A stretch of 37,027 nucleotides of DNA from assembly GCA_030706465.1 (NCBI GenBank), contig JAUZOM010000017.1, positions 1 to 37,027 of the forward strand, given 5' to 3'. The translations under genes were made by a program, and so were the position numbers. This DNA is from Bacteroidota bacterium. GTDB taxonomy: Bacteria; Bacteroidota; Bacteroidia; Bacteroidales; Paludibacteraceae. The notes beneath the pieces are model-generated. The model was not told where the DNA came from. It saw only the letters and a list, made by a program, of their open reading frames with translations, and searched no databases. Below are positions 11,054-20,796 of this stretch, in pieces; the first letter of the stretch is position 1, and the number at the start of each line of letters is the position of its first letter.

Positions 11054-11104
11054 ATAAATAACAAACCTCAAGACATATCCACTGCCTGGAGGTTTGTTAT
11101 TTAT
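11054..11104 (+). terminator. Strong hairpin terminator after the nitroreductase
   Basis: ATAAATAACAAACCTC (11054-11069) and GAGGTTTGTTATTTAT (11089-11104) form a perfect 16-bp stem with a 19-base loop. The U-rich 3' arm makes it a plausible intrinsic terminator. It insulates the CRISPR array, which starts 50 bases later, from read-through. Confidence 0.8.
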
Positions 11105-11154: not shown

Positions 11155-11737
11155 GTTGTGATATGTTTTCGAAAAATTGTATCTTTGACTTTATAAACAA
11201 CTATGAAAAGAATTAAACTATGTACTGATAGTTGTGATTAGCTTTCAAAAAATTGTATCTTTGACTTTATAAACAACGTTTTCTTTTCTCTGTCCGTAAT
11301 GCAATCAGTTGTGATTAGCTTTCAAAAGATTGTATCTTTGACTTTATAAACAACTAATTGATCGTATGTATCCCGGACGTAATGTTGTGATTAGCTTTCA
11401 AAAGATTGTATCTTTGACTTTATAAACAACTTGACCGGGGTCATGCTTTAACACGATTCTGTTGTGATTAGCTTTCAAAAGATTGTATCTTTGACTTTAT
11501 AAACAACTTCAGTTCCTCCATTATATTTAAAAATTCTGTTGTGATTAGCTTTCAAAAGATTGTATCTTTGACTTTATAAACAACTGAAACATTTTCAAAC
11601 TGTGCTAGGTTATCGTTGTGATTAGCTTTCAAAAGATTGTATCTTTGACTTTATAAACAACCAGGTTCATCGGTAACGATTTCGCCATCAGTTGTGATTA
11701 GCTTTCAAAAGATTGTATCTTTGACTTTATAAACAAC
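11155..11737 (+). CRISPR. Type II-C CRISPR array: 8 repeats of 47 bp, 7 spacers of 29-30 bp
   Basis: Repeats start at 11155, 11231, 11308, 11384, 11461, 11538, 11615 and 11691. Each is 47 bp, beginning GTTGTGATTAGC and ending TATAAACAAC. Spacers are 29, 30, 29, 30, 30, 30 and 29 bp. Repeats 3-8 are identical. Repeat 2 has one change at position 21, and repeat 1 has five changes, all within positions 9-21. The plus strand is the crRNA strand, because the first 20 bases of the repeat are complementary to the tracrRNA at 17858-17935. Every repeat, including the first, carries TATCTTTG at positions 26-33, a Bacteroidetes -7 box, so each spacer may have its own promoter. By eye no spacer matches another part of this window. 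Confidence 0.98.
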
Positions 11738-11815
11738 AGAATGTTTGTAAGTCGTACTTAGTCAAAGAGTTGTAATGATAATTACAATTAAAAAATGAGC
11801 TGTTTATGAAGACAG
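11738..11815. other. A/T-rich flank between the array and cas2, candidate adaptation leader
   Basis: This 78-bp stretch adjoins the identical (youngest-looking) repeats. It contains a small inverted repeat, TTGTAAT (11770-11776) with ATTACAA (11781-11787). Because repeat decay is at the opposite end of the array, this flank is the better candidate for the site where new spacers enter. This is inference only. Confidence 0.4.
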
Positions 11816-11838
11816 AATCCCGCTCTAAAGGCGGGATT
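11816..11838 (+). terminator. Terminator of the crRNA precursor
   Basis: AATCCCGC (11816-11823) pairs with GCGGGATT (11831-11838) around a 7-base loop and is followed by TTTTG on the plus strand. The minus-strand side lacks a T-run, so it should stop array transcripts just before the convergent cas2 3' end. Confidence 0.8.
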
Positions 11839-11845
11839 TTTGTTT

Positions 11846-12178
<333 letters not shown>

Positions 12179-12247: not shown

Positions 12248-13165
12248 TCAAACAAAATCAGGATAAGTAATCTTTCTCGCTTCCCCGGCATAACATTTAG
12301 CCAGCGATGCTGTTGTAAATCCTACGGCAATCATTAACGGACTTCGTTGATGATTGATGATCACATCTAAAACCGGAACAGTCAATAATTTTGCTTTAAT
12401 GGATTTTGTAAGTTCGGATATATCTTCTCCACCATCCATGATTTCAATGACTAATTTATCAACGAAAGGCCGGTAAGGTTCCATGATGTCATCAGCCAGG
12501 CAATATGCATTATAACGGTTATGGTGATGAATACCAAATGTCGGAAGCAGTCCGCTTGCCACCAACGAACGGGCCACCACAGCCCGTAATATGGCATAAC
12601 CATAGTTTAGCAGATTATTAGGTGGTATTCCTTCCCTTCCTCTCCGGAAATCAGGAAGCTTGGGAAAAAGGCTTCCCCAATAATAAGCGGCAGCTCGTGC
12701 TTCCAAATTATCTGTATCACCGCTCTTTACGTCGTTTACCCAGGCGAGCATATTTTTTACCACCACATTTCGCTTCGTATGTAACACATAGGCCTGATTG
12801 GTAATCTTAGCCTGGATGGTTTGTTGCCACAATTGTTTCAGGAGAGGCTGTGAAGCTTCAAGCTGGGTCTGGAAACGTTCGCTTTGAATCGTATTTCCAC
12901 TTAACGGTAACTGTAATCCTACCGGCATTCGGCTACTGTCGCAGGTTATCATGGCACAATTGTTCGCTAATAGTGCTTCCATAAGCCCGTGGGTAATGGT
13001 AATCTGTTTATGATCGAGGATCACGACCCCGATATCTTCGATAGGTATGGTATTATTTCCGGTCTTGTCATCTATGCCGTTGGCTTCCGGCAAATGAATA
13101 ACCAGTTGAGCATCCCGCATACTCAGGTAAGCGGGATTTCCAAAGTAAAGAGTGCGTTTAATCAT
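12248..13165 (-). CDS. cas1: CRISPR-associated integrase Cas1
   Basis: Cas1 is the metal-dependent integrase that inserts new spacers with Cas2. The 305-residue protein has the N-terminal beta-rich domain with start RTLYFGNPAYLS. The helical domain carries the expected metal ligands: Glu155 in NLEARAA, the GIHHHNRYNA histidines (213-215) and acidic LADDIMEPYRP (223-233). These match type II Cas1. It begins 65 bases after the cas9 stop, and that gap contains a perfect 13-bp hairpin which could set cas1-cas2 expression apart from cas9. Confidence 0.96.
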   Translation of the reverse strand: MIKRTLYFGNPAYLSMRDAQLVIHLPEANGIDDKTGNNTIPIEDIGVVILDHKQITITHGLMEALLANNCAMITCDSSRMPVGLQLPLSGNTIQSERFQTQLEASQPLLKQLWQQTIQAKITNQAYVLHTKRNVVVKNMLAWVNDVKSGDTDNLEARAAAYYWGSLFPKLPDFRRGREGIPPNNLLNYGYAILRAVVARSLVASGLLPTFGIHHHNRYNAYCLADDIMEPYRPFVDKLVIEIMDGGEDISELTKSIKAKLLTVPVLDVIINHQRSPLMIAVGFTTASLAKCYAGEARKITYPDFV

Positions 13166-13230: not shown

Positions 13231-16200
13231 TTATATTGAAATATTCCCTAAACGATCGACTTTGAGCTTTTCACAATACTGCTTGATTGATAAATTATTT
13301 TCGATTTCAAATTCCATCTTGTTAAGCAATGTAAATTCCACTTTATCTACAATTGTTGTTGCAATGTTTTGTTGAACAGCATATAGTCGATTCCCTGTAA
13401 AGCTAATAATTTTATAAATGCGATTACTATCTTGAATTTCTTTTGGACTAGTTAGAATATTCTCAATAGTAGGCATATACACCAAATCATTTGGTGACAA
13501 ATGAAATAATAACTTGTTTCCCTTCTCATTTACTTCCGGCACTTCATTCCATCCTTGTTTTAGCCTTTCAATTACAATATTCAGCGGAATGGTTTCATAG
13601 CTGCGTTTGCCTTCTTCGTCAACATAAATAGCAAAGAAAAGATTGGTTCCTTTGGCAGACTCTACATATTTGTTGATCTTATTCCCGACAACACCAACAT
13701 TAAACTTATTCCCCTTGGGCTCATAAGTTCGTACTTTTAGTATCGGTTGATGCTGCTTTCCTCGGTTTAATACGACAATGTTTTTATTCATTTCATCTAT
13801 GCCTTCCGGAGAAAAAGCGAATTCAGGATGTTCAACAGTCTTTCCATCATTTTCTTCATTGTAATTTGACAAATGATTAAATAGTATTTGTTGAATGCCG
13901 GTATCCGTTATACTTTCTATTCTTTTGCTATTAAATGAAATATCTAAATTTACACGTGATGCAACTTGAATATCCTTGTCATTTGTAAAATAGTAAAGTT
14001 CAACTTTAGATATCTCTTTATCAAGCCATTTATTTTCCTGAGCAGCAAAAAACTTCTGAATCTTCTTTTTATCTAAACCTTCATTTATCAACTGCTTAAT
14101 TTTGGTTTTTAGATTTTTGTCTACTAACATTTCCCATTGATCTATCCCCAACGATAAATTAACTGTCTTTTTCATCCTTAAATTCACTATCCCTGCAACA
14201 GTATCTTTATGCAATGGCTTGCGGATAGCCCAACTATCACCTTTTTCCTGCTTTTTTACAATTTTCTTTCCATCTTCATAACACTGATAGTTATTTACAG
14301 TCTTATTTATCACTCTCAAATTTTGTTTGAAGCTAACTACAATATTTTCAAAAGCAGTTTGTGCATCTTGGGTGAATGTATCCCAGGGTTTGTAAAACTG
14401 CCATTTGTAGTTGCCTTTATCATCGGTTTTAGATTTGTAACAAAGCTTGTATCTTAAATCAGCTCTGCTTACCTTGGCTGAGGCTTTAGCCGATTCATTA
14501 TTTAAATAATTGATATGGCTTCGTGTAGCACAAGCTATAACCAATGCGTCCATCGCATGGTGACGATGATCAATCCGTTTCTTATTAAAGCCTTTCTGAA
14601 GTTCAAGTGGCATTTCTGTTTGAAAAACCCGTTTGCCCTCTTTGTTTGTCCATTGCCCAAAGTTATTGCTCTTTGTTAGTTCGTTCATGCGTTCAAAACG
14701 CGGGGTTACAATGCCGTTCCATACATCGTTCAATCCCCAATCCTGTTTTAGAATTGTAGTGATGCCTCCGGTACATGATATAACATTTTTAGACGTGGCT
14801 TCTAACTCTCCCTCTTCACGAACAATGTTGGATAAGAGCCCTTTTACTACTTTACTAATGTACCGGGTATCATTAAGTTGTCGTTGAACAAAATCTTCAG
14901 GAATATCTTCCATTAAGAGCTTTTTCATCTTACTGCGACTCTTGCTATAATATTGCTTAACGAAATCTTCATATTCTGCAATCGTGAAGATCTTTACCCT
15001 TTTACCATAGCTCAGTTCAATAATTCTTCCTTCGTTGTTTTTGATAAATTCATAACCCAGCGCATTATCTTTCTCCTTGTTTACTTCTGCTTCGCAAATT
15101 ACCTTATTGCTCAACGAATCATCAAAATAGCGTGATTGAGGAATAACATGTTCTATTTCATAAGCCGATGTAAAAAGCTTACCAAGCGGAATTATTTCAC
15201 CGGTATAAGGAGAGCGATACTTTTGTTCCAACCATAATTTGTAGCGTATCAGATCTGATCTTGAAGGTTGATTTGTTTTGGCTATTTTGGCAATATCTTC
15301 AGGTATTTCAATGCCTGAATTTAAGACTCCTTCTTCATAGATTCTCAAAATCTCTTGCTGGCTTGGAGAGTAGGGACGAACATTCTCCACATCCTGATTG
15401 ATCAGTTCGGCTAAAAGGTATTTAATTCGTAAATTGGAGTTTTCGTTTTCTGCTATTTGGGCCGTCATTTTGGCTCGTTTGTCTGCCGGATTTTTCATCT
15501 CCCTACCCAACTCAATATGAATCTCAGCTATACTACCATATTGTTTCCAAATGTCTTTAACTACACGGAGAGTTTCGGTAATAACCTGTTCGACAATTGG
15601 GTTTCTGAGAGAATGCTGTTTAAACTCGTTTATGAATTTCTCCAAATCTTCAGGCGTTTCCCATTTTTTTACATTTCCTGACTCGGAATGTCTTCCGTAA
15701 ACAGCATAGCAGGCCTGATAAGTGTTAATTCCTGAATAAGGATTGCTGCAATTTATAAAACTCTTTAGTACTTGCTTTGGAATGATGCTATCTGAAACTG
15801 TATCAATAAGGGAAGCATCGTGATGAATGGATTCTAATCTGGCTTTGATAGACTCAACTCTATCTTTTGTGTCTGCTGAAATAGTACCTTCATCCCAATA
15901 CTTTCCCATTCGCATCAAAGGCAATAACTTCTTTATCGCTTTTTCGGAAAAAGCACCATATTCTTTTTTAAAGGGTGGAAATTCCTTGAATATTTCAACG
16001 AAGTCATCACCCAATTCATTTTTTATCGCAAAGGATTTTAATGCTTTCTCAATTTCTAATTTATCTTCTACCGAATAGAGTATATGCCACAATGCAAGCT
16101 CCGTGTCTTTATCTAAGAAATTTTCAGGTACGTGATTTACTTTTGAGAGTCGGTTGAGTATTTGAGTCCTGGTCTCATTTGCAGGGTAAAGTTTATCCTC

Positions 16201-17754
16201 TACATAATTCCAACGATATTTTTCGACGTTTTTCTTTAATCCAAATGCCGGATACTTCAAGAAAGCCTTTTGATCTACATCTTTTCTTTGATTCAACCAG
16301 TCGAAAAGAGCTACATATTCTTCCTCCGATTTCAAAAAATCCGAGGTTACATCGATGTCTGTTTGTAGCCTTTCATCAACTGTTCTTTCCCGTTCACAAA
16401 TCCGGATATTTTGAATAAACTGCCATAAACGAAACTCCTGATAGATTGGATGCGACTTAGCAATACATTTAATGGGGTTTGTCTTCTTTTCGCCTGACTC
16501 TTTGTCAATAAAGGTACGTGTTTCGTATGTACAATTACTGATCAATGATTTCTTGCTTTTTAGCGGGCGTTGGTAAAAAATAATGTCTTCTAAAAACAAA
16601 TAGGTGAAATCCCGATTTGCATTACTGCTTCGATGTCCTTCATTGTTCCCGTATAGGTCTTCAAGACAGGCCCTATACAATTCAGCATTATTTAATTCGG
16701 CATGAAATTCCTTTTGTTTTTCCAGAATGGCTTTAAGTTCATTTTTATAATATTTGCGTTCGATAGTACGCACTAATTTGCCATTGACTTTTTGACCGGG
16801 AGTATGCAAAAGAACATCATAAATATAGCAACCTACTGTTTTTTGACTTTTTTCTATATCCGATTCTGTTTTCTTCTTCAGTAATGTCCAGTCATCCTCT
16901 GAAGGGGCCCGAAACGAGCGTTTTTCTTTCCCATCCTTATCTGTTTTGACTGTTCCATCATTATTTAAATCTGTTGTTACAATAAAATCTTTGGTTTTCT
17001 CTTTCCATTCAAATAGCGGCGTTTTGCTCGAACGTCTGTAAATCCATCCATTCTCTAAAATAACATTATACCAAATATCTGTTTTCCCTTTTGGTGGCTC
17101 ATCGGCTGTAACATCAACGACTCTTAAGGAATGATACTCCACTAATTTATTTGAATTTTCTTCTTCCTCTTCACCCCTTAATTGATAATAGCCTCTTTTC
17201 TGATTAAAGTTTAGTAATAACCAGGCTAATTCTTCTTTTTCTATTTTTTTGGATAATGCTTTTTTGCGTAAAAAATAAATAGTCCAATCATATGGTATTA
17301 GCTTCTCATTTTCAAAAAGCTGGGGTTGTGTGATCTTAAACTCTTCCACCATTTCTTTAAAAGAAGACTTGAAGATGAAATCAAAACTTCCATTTTCGTT
17401 CTCTCTCCAAACTAATTTGGGTTCTGTGTCTGATAAAAACTGACCTAACCGATTATCAAAATCAATGCATTTTTCATAGTGTACAGGCAGAAAGCCCATA
17501 ATATGCAATACTCTGTGCAGTCTTTCCCTGCGTAGCAAATGTCTTTCTCTAAGCCTTCGTACTCCTCTAAATCCTGTCCGGTCGGCAGTTTGCGAAATGG
17601 AATTACCGCTATCAAACTTTCCCAACATATCTTGACTCATGGGAATTATTCTGCTTCCGATTCCTAAAATTCCTTTCTGATTGTCGACATCTTCATTTAC
17701 CAATGCCCATCCAATGCTGTTTGTACCCAAATCCAATCCCAATATTTTCTTCAT
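13231..17754 (-). CDS. cas9: Type II-C Cas9 RNA-guided endonuclease, large Bacteroidetes form
   Basis: Cas9 uses the crRNA:tracrRNA duplex to cut matching DNA. All catalytic parts are present in the 1507-residue protein. RuvC-I GLDLGTNSIGWA has Asp8, the Arg-rich bridge helix is at about 58-88, and RuvC-II IHIELGREM has Glu748. The HNH segment EIEHVIPQSRYFDDSLSNKV has His869 and Asn883, and RuvC-III DHRHHAMDAL has His1066 and Asp1069. It is longer than SpCas9 and typical of large Bacteroidetes II-C proteins. The region after RuvC-III (about 1100-1507) should hold the wedge and PAM-interacting domains, and the PAM cannot be read from sequence. It is the first gene of the cas run and divergent from the tracrRNA. 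No truncation or frameshift is seen. Confidence 0.98.
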   Translation of the reverse strand: MKKILGLDLGTNSIGWALVNEDVDNQKGILGIGSRIIPMSQDMLGKFDSGNSISQTADRTGFRGVRRLRERHLLRRERLHRVLHIMGFLPVHYEKCIDFDNRLGQFLSDTEPKLVWRENENGSFDFIFKSSFKEMVEEFKITQPQLFENEKLIPYDWTIYFLRKKALSKKIEKEELAWLLLNFNQKRGYYQLRGEEEEENSNKLVEYHSLRVVDVTADEPPKGKTDIWYNVILENGWIYRRSSKTPLFEWKEKTKDFIVTTDLNNDGTVKTDKDGKEKRSFRAPSEDDWTLLKKKTESDIEKSQKTVGCYIYDVLLHTPGQKVNGKLVRTIERKYYKNELKAILEKQKEFHAELNNAELYRACLEDLYGNNEGHRSSNANRDFTYLFLEDIIFYQRPLKSKKSLISNCTYETRTFIDKESGEKKTNPIKCIAKSHPIYQEFRLWQFIQNIRICERERTVDERLQTDIDVTSDFLKSEEEYVALFDWLNQRKDVDQKAFLKYPAFGLKKNVEKYRWNYVEDKLYPANETRTQILNRLSKVNHVPENFLDKDTELALWHILYSVEDKLEIEKALKSFAIKNELGDDFVEIFKEFPPFKKEYGAFSEKAIKKLLPLMRMGKYWDEGTISADTKDRVESIKARLESIHHDASLIDTVSDSIIPKQVLKSFINCSNPYSGINTYQACYAVYGRHSESGNVKKWETPEDLEKFINEFKQHSLRNPIVEQVITETLRVVKDIWKQYGSIAEIHIELGREMKNPADKRAKMTAQIAENENSNLRIKYLLAELINQDVENVRPYSPSQQEILRIYEEGVLNSGIEIPEDIAKIAKTNQPSRSDLIRYKLWLEQKYRSPYTGEIIPLGKLFTSAYEIEHVIPQSRYFDDSLSNKVICEAEVNKEKDNALGYEFIKNNEGRIIELSYGKRVKIFTIAEYEDFVKQYYSKSRSKMKKLLMEDIPEDFVQRQLNDTRYISKVVKGLLSNIVREEGELEATSKNVISCTGGITTILKQDWGLNDVWNGIVTPRFERMNELTKSNNFGQWTNKEGKRVFQTEMPLELQKGFNKKRIDHRHHAMDALVIACATRSHINYLNNESAKASAKVSRADLRYKLCYKSKTDDKGNYKWQFYKPWDTFTQDAQTAFENIVVSFKQNLRVINKTVNNYQCYEDGKKIVKKQEKGDSWAIRKPLHKDTVAGIVNLRMKKTVNLSLGIDQWEMLVDKNLKTKIKQLINEGLDKKKIQKFFAAQENKWLDKEISKVELYYFTNDKDIQVASRVNLDISFNSKRIESITDTGIQQILFNHLSNYNEENDGKTVEHPEFAFSPEGIDEMNKNIVVLNRGKQHQPILKVRTYEPKGNKFNVGVVGNKINKYVESAKGTNLFFAIYVDEEGKRSYETIPLNIVIERLKQGWNEVPEVNEKGNKLLFHLSPNDLVYMPTIENILTSPKEIQDSNRIYKIISFTGNRLYAVQQNIATTIVDKVEFTLLNKMEFEIENNLSIKQYCEKLKVDRLGNISI

Positions 17755-17822: not shown

Positions 17823-17853
17823 TTTGTTAGATTAATTTAAATTTATATCTTTG
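17823..17853 (+). promoter_or_regulatory. Consensus Bacteroidetes promoter of the tracrRNA
   Basis: TTTG (17823-17826) is followed after exactly 19 bases by TATCTTTG (17846-17853), a perfect match to TTTG-N19-TAnnTTTG. The -7 octamer is identical to the one inside every CRISPR repeat. Confidence 0.8.
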
Positions 17854-17857
17854 TCGT

Positions 17858-17935
17858 ACAATTTTTGAAGCTAATCACAATAAGGATTATTCCGTTGTGA
17901 AAACATGTAAGGCGGGGTAACTCGCCTTTTTTTTT
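17858..17935 (+). ncRNA. tracrRNA of the type II-C system
   Basis: The anti-repeat TTTTTGAAGCTAATCACAA (17862-17880) is complementary to repeat positions 2-20, with one bulged base. It is followed by a small GGA/TCC hairpin (17884-17892), a GUUGUGAAAAC linker and a terminator hairpin AAGGCG/CGCCTT (17909-17928) running into nine T residues (17927-17935). A consensus promoter ends five bases before the predicted 5' end, so the RNA would be about 75-78 nt. It lies divergent from cas9 and about 6.1 kb from the array. Exact ends need RNA data, but identity as tracrRNA is well supported by the pairing. Confidence 0.93.
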
Positions 17936-18325
17936 ATTATCGTGATTTTATAATCAGGCCTCCCCGGTTTAAAAACAGGCCAATTTAGCCCTCCTCATTC
18001 GCTGGTTTTCATCAATTCTCTTCCGAAACATCGCGGCCTTATTATCGCCTTTTATTCAGACTTTGTAGGGAGCTGTCAGAGTGATGTCGGAATTATCTCA
18101 TAGTATTATATAGTCCCGATAACAGTGTTACCACTATCTCAATTTATACTGATTTTTTTATTGTATTGACGATGAAAGCACAAGGCGGACAGTTATCCAT
18201 TTTAATTCTTCGGTTCGCACACAATCGTTTAAGGATTTCCATAACCGGCTTTAGACGAAACTGAAATTACAGGCCCATTTCCTTGAACTTTTCTTCCCTC
18301 TTATTGTTAGGAATACAATTTATAT
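17936..18325. other. Noncoding region beyond the tracrRNA
   Basis: No gene is recognised. A short stretch at 18243-18267 (AACCGG, then AGACGAAACTGAAAT) resembles 22303-22329 inside the dispersed repeat at 22246-22361, so this may be another decayed fragment of that element. Confidence 0.35.
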
Positions 18326-18426: not shown

Positions 18427-18566
18427 GTAATTGGAAATATACAGTACTCCCTGTTATTTTTACTTCTTACTGGAAGGAAATAAGGGAAGATTCGTAAGGT
18501 GTTCAATTCTCTACGAAGGGGAAGGAAAAAGGAAAATAGGGTTTTCTTTTTTGAACTGCCTCCCGG

Positions 18567-18764
18567 TCTTATTTTAGTCTTATTTTAGTCTTATTCCAGT
18601 TTAGGTATAGAGGGGGTTCAGTTAGGGTTCAGTTAGGGTTCAGTTAGGGTTCAGTTAGGGTTCAGTTAGGGTTCGGATAGGGTTCGGATAGGGTTCGGAT
18701 AGGTAGACCTAACTAAACCCTCTCGAAACCCTCTCTATACTCCCGTTGAAATGTCTCTATACCT
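18567..18764. repeat. Tandem tract with 11-bp period, about 18 units
   Basis: Units of 11 bases run without phase loss from 18567. They are TCTTATTTTAG twice, TCTTATTCCAG, TTTAGGTATAG, AGGGGGTTCAG, TTAGGGTTCAG four times (18622-18665), TTAGGGTTCGG, ATAGGGTTCGG twice, then diverged units such as TCTCGAAACCC and TCTCTATACCT. A perfect 12-bp inverted repeat, TTAGGTATAGAG (18601-18612) and CTCTATACCTAA (18755-18766), brackets the core. It is noncoding in all frames. The 11-bp period is shared with 40-138. Confidence 0.85.
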
Positions 18765-20606: not shown

Positions 20607-20637
20607 TTTGCAGATTAAAATAGTTTACTTACTTTTG
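20607..20637 (+). promoter_or_regulatory. Consensus Bacteroidetes promoter of metK
   Basis: TTTG (20607-20610) is followed after exactly 19 bases by TACTTTTG (20630-20637). The predicted transcript start is a few bases before the riboswitch, leaving a leader of about 150 bases. Confidence 0.8.
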
Positions 20638-20647
20638 TAGCGTAATA

Positions 20648-20702
20648 AATGTGGAGAGATTTGGACTGCTTGCAACCACAGAAAAAAATGCTAAATCGCA
20701 AC
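20648..20702 (+). promoter_or_regulatory. SAM-II-like riboswitch in the metK leader
   Basis: The leader can fold as a SAM-II pseudoknot. P1 is TGTGG (20650-20654) with CCACA (20676-20680), and loop bases GATTT (20658-20662) pair with AAATC (20693-20697) downstream. The conserved words GATTTG, CTTGCAACC and AAAAAATGCTAAA are in the expected order. SAM-II elements are known from alphaproteobacteria and Bacteroidetes upstream of methionine/SAM genes. Binding of SAM to this copy is inferred from fold and context. Confidence 0.8.
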
Positions 20703-20796
20703 CTCTTTCTGCCTCGTACAAAGTCCTGCACTAAATCATTCCTATTTTTTACAATCATCTGTTCATTGTAAAACAATTAATTATTAATTAAATATT

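Follow-up and report, generated by a model that had tools for sequence, protein, structure and literature searches.

In the type II-C CRISPR arrays of Campylobacter jejuni and Neisseria meningitidis, a sigma-70 type −10 box ends the 36-bp repeat, and transcription starts at or in the spacer. Each repeat of these arrays reportedly carries a promoter (Zhang 2013 and Dugar 2013, as cited in PMC12080349 and PMC5006608). A per-repeat promoter has already been proposed for F. columnare and F. psychrophilum, and transcription of their arrays was reported from RNA-seq, according to the available portions of the two papers (PMC8092290, PMC10309648). In R. anatipestifer, new spacers are described, in the part of the paper available, as inserted between cas2 and the array (PMC6008519), and the II-C array of B. 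fragilis is reported to lack an assignable leader (PMC5704556, available sections). A survey devoted to extra repeats across more than 650 II-C systems indicated in its available text that mutations of the first repeat fall chiefly within the first 15 nt, and its authors suggest that the first repeat must keep its promoter (PMC12080349); the word starts Bacteroid and Flavobacteri gave no match in that text. In the open-access literature searched, and within the portions of it available, no description of a TAnnTTTG box in a CRISPR repeat was found; the nearest accounts name only a TTG, and the octamer mentioned in the accessible part of PMC10459013 sits in a spacer.

The locus described here lies in a stretch of 37,027 nucleotides (hereafter the window) from a member of the Paludibacteraceae (Bacteroidota, Bacteroidia, Bacteroidales); among the best 80 of 573 named GTDB relatives, the closest Cas9 matches belong to Paludibacter. 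The window contains a type II-C locus in which cas9, cas1, and cas2 lie on the minus strand and the array and tracrRNA gene on the plus strand (Table 1). Consistent with membership in type II-C, these three are the only cas genes among the window open reading frames scanned, the five others being assigned to nitroreductase, TetR, ACP phosphodiesterase, DLH hydrolase, and metK, and a tracrRNA with an anti-repeat is encoded near cas9, as is characteristic of this type. The initial annotation likened the array to the repeat promoters of Neisseria and Campylobacter, and at the level of sequence the likeness is supported: a II-C Cas9, a putative promoter in each repeat, and predicted transcription in the direction of the spacer-acquiring end are common to the window and to N. 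meningitidis and C. jejuni, whereas the window has a sigma-ABfr −7 box in the middle of a 47-bp repeat and a predicted start inside the repeat.

The array (11155–11737) comprises eight 47-bp repeats and seven spacers of 29–30 nt. With one ambiguous base allowed, the exact repeat occurs seven times in the assembly, always within this array, and the eighth copy is repeat 1, which is degenerate (positions 9, 10, 12, 17, and 21 altered) with the box and 3′ half intact and which, being degenerate and distant from cas2, is probably the oldest repeat. Repeat 8 would be the site of new spacer insertion, by analogy with R. anatipestifer as described in the available part of PMC6008519. The inverted repeat 5′ of the array was not called in the terminator scan, and between 10900 and 12100 one terminator-like site was found as against 0.8 in shuffles, which alone is chance level. 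Tandem repeats of 11 bp (GTCTTATTTTA, 2.7 copies; GGGTTCAGTTA, 7.5 copies) were also observed at 18566–18696, in the interval separating the tracrRNA from the gene that follows.

Table 1. Positions of the II-C locus features in the window, with predicted elements marked as such.
Feature	Position	Strand	Remark
Inverted repeat, A+T-rich, 5′ of array	11054–11104		Possible terminator of the nitroreductase gene
Repeat 1	11155–11201	+	−7 box 11180–11187; predicted start 11192
Repeat 2	11231–11277	+	Box 11256–11263; predicted start 11268
Repeat 3	11308–11354	+	Box 11333–11340; predicted start 11345
Repeat 4	11384–11430	+	Box 11409–11416; predicted start 11421
Repeat 5	11461–11507	+	Box 11486–11493; predicted start 11498
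Repeat 6	11538–11584	+	Box 11563–11570; predicted start 11575
Repeat 7	11615–11661	+	Box 11640–11647; predicted start 11652
Repeat 8	11691–11737	+	Adjoins cas2; box 11716–11723; predicted start 11728
Terminator-like site 3′ of array	11814–11840	+	On the crRNA strand
cas2	11846–12178	−
cas1	12248–13165	−	TIGR03639, type II
cas9	13231–17754	−	1507 aa
tracrRNA −7 box	17846–17853	+	TATCTTTG, identical to the repeat octamer
Predicted tracrRNA	17858–17940	+	Anti-repeat, stem, terminator stem with T run; fold z-score −3.8

In all eight repeats, the octamer TATCTTTG, an exact TAnnTTTG, occupies positions 26–33 on the plus strand, which is the crRNA strand because the tracrRNA anti-repeat, on which the orientation of the array was based, shows the direction of the repeat; the initial annotation is confirmed on this point. 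A promoter element on the crRNA strand is accordingly present in each of the eight repeats, as expected of repeat-embedded promoters, and the element has the form of the −7 box of promoters read by sigma-ABfr, the primary sigma factor of Bacteroidota. The partial −33 match proposed with it, TGTG, is indeed found at positions 3–6, 19 bases 5′ of the box, but the TTG at positions 2–4, which overlaps it and starts 24 bases 5′ of the box, is the better candidate. We conclude, with a probability of roughly 0.85 and from sequence comparison, that each repeat is likely to be a complete sigma-ABfr promoter and that each spacer would be read from the preceding repeat. The array itself contributes little to this conclusion: TAnnTTTG occurs 52 times in the window as against 42.5 expected, subtraction of the eight array copies leaves 44, which is chance level, and the eight copies count as a single event that duplication has multiplied. 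Since the motif is common by chance and one array proves no more, the repeats were compared across loci. As a same-genome yardstick for the promoter code of the host, TACTTTTG at 20630 begins 15 nt 5′ of the SAM-II riboswitch before metK (20630–20704).

The comparison set comprised 239 further cas9 loci. In the order sample, 155 of 393 genomes were above the Cas9 cut-off, and 100 regions taken from them, together with the window, gave 101 loci, comprising 62 long-repeat arrays (61 distinct repeats), 14 arrays put in the short class (34–37 bp), and 25 loci in which no array was found; one locus once placed in the short class (L119) proved to have a long repeat with the box, which had been truncated and read from the wrong strand, and was not added to the long set, and 13 short repeats (36–37 bp) remain. 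In the phylum sample, 65 of 395 genomes were above the cut-off and 59 regions were taken, and the named GTDB sample consisted of the best 80 of 573 relatives, 49 of them with an array of three or more copies. Among the 80 named loci, at least five coincide with DNA already represented in the unnamed samples, and repeats already counted were removed from the 42 that this sample contributes; the 103 distinct long repeats (45–50 bp) are these 42 and the 61 of the order. The array-finding script required a minimum of three copies, contig ends cut some arrays, and counts use one array per locus, the largest; the second tandem repeat of L117 was excluded, and the second array of L056 was turned by hand.

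The initial annotation proposed that the position of the box be compared across II-C repeats, and in this comparison an exact TAnnTTTG is present in 82 of the 103 distinct long repeats. In the order, 48 of 61 distinct long repeats carry it, as against a mean of 1.4 and a maximum of 6 in 500 trials in which repeat positions from 21 to the end were permuted, and only one of the 61 carries it on the opposite strand; in the named sample, the box is found in 40/48 distinct repeats and in 34/42 of those new to the set. The repeat of the cultured Paludibacter jiangxiensis (L192) is nearly identical to that of the window, and Bacteroides faecis (L197) is another cultured member of the class among the loci compared. 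The box is absent from all 13 short repeats of the order. Long repeats from other orders of the class contain the exact box in 2/14 cases and a box with the last two letters relaxed and a start at 21–29 in 12/14, and the corresponding counts in other classes of the phylum are 2/10 and 1/10. Alignment columns from MAFFT do not resolve the box sharply, since its position varies by as many as five bases. In some repeats without a mid box, a box-like element stands at positions 31–34, as if the promoter had moved: GATCTTTG at 32–34 in L084, L093, L110, L113, and L117, and TATATTTG at 31–32 in L223 and L235, these late boxes being inexact or exact. A separate long-repeat subfamily (L064, L245, and L258) shares a AACATTGA element near the usual place of the box. 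Furthermore, TTCTTTG without TA stands at the box place in five loci from other classes of the phylum (L148, L149, L179, L187, and L188), and the 36-bp repeats of L158, L160, and L182 contain a box-like element towards the 3′ end (GATCTTTG, TATCTTAG, and TACCTTAG, respectively).

The same promoter code precedes the tracrRNA genes. Among 161 tracrRNAs recognized by an anti-repeat followed by an AAGG motif, those of long-repeat loci have TAnnTTTG within 25 nt upstream in 50/59 cases in the order (shuffled, 1.7) and in 41/45 in the named sample (shuffled, 1.3); in other orders of the class and in other classes, the motif lies upstream in 6/13 and 2/9, respectively. In the window, a TTTG ends 19 bases 5′ of the tracrRNA box, and the anti-repeat pairs with repeat positions 2 to about 26. 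The T of the tracrRNA box is most often 12 nt 5′ of the anti-repeat, and therefore the duplex ends where the box begins; uncut alignments of repeat and tracrRNA end near 18–28 in clear cases, some rows being longer via gapped or off-target matches. The box is placed at −12 to −5 in F. psychrophilum in the available part of PMC9723704, and therefore the tracrRNA should begin at the anti-repeat. In B. thetaiotaomicron, a −7/−33 motif of similar kind is given for 81% of primary starts in the portion of PMC7366714 available. By comparison, upstream gene regions of the order loci showed hardly any excess of TAnnTTTG (100 sense, 83 antisense) in a small sample with crude gene calls.

A promoter model was trained on 95 tracrRNA promoters, which were chosen for a loose box so that the model is not blind to it, and a repeat passed at or above the 10th percentile. 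The model passes 94 of the 103 long repeats (57/61 in the order and 37/42 in the named sample), as against 6.9 and 6.4% of shuffles and 2/61 and 1/42 on the opposite strand. It further passes 12/14 long repeats from other orders of the class and 6/10 from other classes, and, among short repeats, 0/13 in the order, 2/6 in the class, and 7/16 in other classes; given the last figure, repeat length does not cleanly separate the two kinds outside the class. The window repeat scores 16.2, the median tracrRNA promoter 15.3, and the window's own tracrRNA promoter, which is in the training set, 19.1. At the level of sequence, box and model both support the claim that every repeat holds a Bacteroidetes-type promoter directed along the crRNA strand. 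The nine long repeats that fail are those of L044, L064, L066, L082, L199, L244, L245, L258, and L260. The initial annotation would have counted active boxless repeats in close relatives against its claim, and such a case was encountered in part: L066 (G383), of the window's family, has a boxless array of 15 repeats with a model match 112 nt upstream, and L109 (G041), also of this family, has the box.

The putative −33 element of boxed repeats lies near the distance found in tracrRNA promoters. In 99 tracrRNA promoters, TTG peaks at 23 (30 promoters) and 22 (21 promoters) bases 5′ of the box, and in 89 boxed-repeat loci the TTG of GTTGTG lies 22 (45), 21 (18), or 23 (8) bases 5′ of the box, i.e., at 21–23 in 71/89. 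The distance of 24 in the window repeat is within the range and off the mode, and 4/99 tracrRNA promoters have the same spacing. The −33 match is not independent evidence because boxless repeats also keep GTTGTG, which pairs with the tracrRNA.

The alternative that survives best, and which we nevertheless regard as improbable, is that the octamer is kept for spacing or recognition by Cas1–Cas2 during integration, or simply by descent, and that a promoter upstream of the array drives its transcription. The box position is fairly fixed within the repeat, and the nn letters vary less among repeats than among tracrRNA promoters, being TC in 61/86 boxed repeats versus 17/114; therefore, common descent or another constraint also keeps the octamer. 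However, among near neighbours with at least 80% identity outside the box, counted irrespective of the box because a boxed-only set is biased by its own selection, TA/TTTG varies less (27/348 sites differ) than nn (22/116) or the next eight bases (103/462), with p about 1e-8 for box versus post-box sites, and at 60% identity the differing sites are 80/486, 44/162, and 197/646, respectively. The same element at the same spacing also precedes the tracrRNA gene, although this gene is no repeat, and boxless short repeats stand beside Cas9 genes as well. As for upstream promoters, long arrays exceed chance both in TAnnTTTG (11/82 versus 5.0 ± 2.2 in shuffles) and, among arrays passing the model, in model matches within 200 nt (16/90 versus 8.8 ± 2.4), so that a subset may additionally possess an upstream promoter; nonetheless, 74 of the 90 passing arrays have no match in that interval, and in the window the crRNA strand contains no TAnnTTTG from the end of the nitroreductase gene to repeat 1. 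In the order, such matches were found for 7/47 passing long arrays versus 6/12 short-repeat arrays (uncorrected p of 0.017 without L119 and 0.025 with it), and the best upstream match of each matching short-repeat array is 101–141 nt away.

It is quite unlikely that the box is a weak and largely silent promoter-like relic, with most crRNA arising from read-through of neighbouring genes. In the available part of PMC8092290, only eight reads mapped to the F. columnare II-C array (36-bp repeats), as such a relic would lead one to expect, but active pre-crRNA transcription was seen by RNA-seq in F. psychrophilum CN46 (PMC10309648, available part), and the repeats score as high in the model as tracrRNA promoters. 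Moreover, of the 97 long-repeat arrays whose locus has a cas9 strand call, 94 point against cas9 (38 have no such call), and therefore read-through from the cas genes is unlikely to serve boxed arrays. Short-repeat arrays follow the direction of cas9 in 16/19 callable loci of the order and class, and those of other classes of the phylum are opposite to it in 5/5. A terminator-like site lies within 170 nt 3′ of long-repeat arrays on the crRNA strand in 62/82 and on the other strand in 47/82, a test that is only weakly directional, as for a terminator shared between converging units. Finally, that the box is kept because this part of the repeat pairs with the tracrRNA is scarcely credible, since the conserved 5′ half of the repeat does pair but the duplex, in an alignment cut at repeat position 26, ends near the start of the box, and bases upstream of the anti-repeat match box positions 3–8 in 51 of 498 cells, below a quarter.

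Decay of the first repeat was considered as strong support for the box and rejected, as short-repeat arrays show the same pattern. The first repeat is altered in 32/47 boxed arrays, mostly in the tracrRNA half, and keeps the box in 42/47, but the bases after the box are kept as well as the box itself, and the 3′ half is also kept in the first repeats of short-repeat arrays, so that the pattern is not evidence for the box and is only consistent with a box promoter; the −33 TTG is retained in 16/31 decayed first repeats. An opposite polarity of acquisition in short-repeat arrays of the order was also rejected: of eight arrays, three had altered first repeats (one by masked letters only) and three altered last repeats, and in the class and phylum short-repeat groups the altered repeats are the first ones.

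If each repeat is a complete promoter, GTTGTG at the 5′ end of the repeat would serve as the −33 element and TATCTTTG as the −7 element, and transcription would start at about repeat position 38, approximately 10 nt before the spacer. This position is predicted from where the available part of PMC9723704 locates the F. psychrophilum box, and it agrees with the earlier expectation of a start within the last 10 or so repeat bases. The predicted repeat tail is about 12 nt in 53/82 boxed repeats and 10 nt in the window. The transcript would begin with roughly the last 10 nt of the repeat, cross the spacer, and continue into the next repeat, whose 5′ half would pair with the tracrRNA before processing; read-through would halt at the terminator-like site at 11814–11840, and new spacers would join on the cas2 side, gaining a promoter with their repeat. 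The expectation that mature-like crRNAs arise with little 5′ processing is not supported, the predicted transcript keeping 10 nt of repeat and the whole 29–30-nt spacer. Purified Fp2Cas9 is active with 22–30-nt spacers and best with 24–26 (PMC12609912, in the part available), which suggests that the 40-nt 5′ part may well be trimmed; given the repeat bases left by the predicted start, it is doubtful that initiation rather than processing sets the crRNA 5′ end.

For the class Bacteroidia, at slightly under even odds, we would tentatively propose two II-C designs. Long repeats (45–50 bp) would be whole sigma-ABfr promoters spanning about −37 to +10, with the extra 11 bp housing the start, and would run against the cas operon; short repeats (36 bp), mostly boxless, would run with the cas genes and be read from a promoter 100–140 nt upstream. 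On this view, promoter geometry and the integrase would together determine how long a repeat is.

The proposed promoters offer a concrete answer to how arrays without an assigned leader may be read in a major bacterial phylum and a sequence-based means of orienting such arrays, and they predict separate expression of each spacer, i.e., of each item of stored virus memory, with new ones expressed at once. Repeat promoters are known in II-C arrays, and the Flavobacterium proposal was made from TTG alone; within the open-access literature searched, the −7 version is a new one. For F. columnare and F. psychrophilum, of the same phylum, the available text names only a TTG 33 or 35 bp before the spacer, and TAnnTTTG only for the cas9 gene; this TTG is part of GTTGTG, which is also present in boxless 36-bp repeats of the Flavobacterium type, and the box described here supplies the missing −7 half. 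The II-C system of R. anatipestifer resembles that of the window in its 47-bp repeats, 30-bp spacers, and tracrRNA upstream of cas9 (PMC5006608, PMC6008519, available parts). In the accessible text of the 2016 report, its authors stated that they had found no promoters in the repeats and predicted ones next to cas2 (PMC5006608); the repeat sequence did not surface when that text was searched. Compared by description, the promoters proposed here run counter to what was printed about the repeats of R. anatipestifer.
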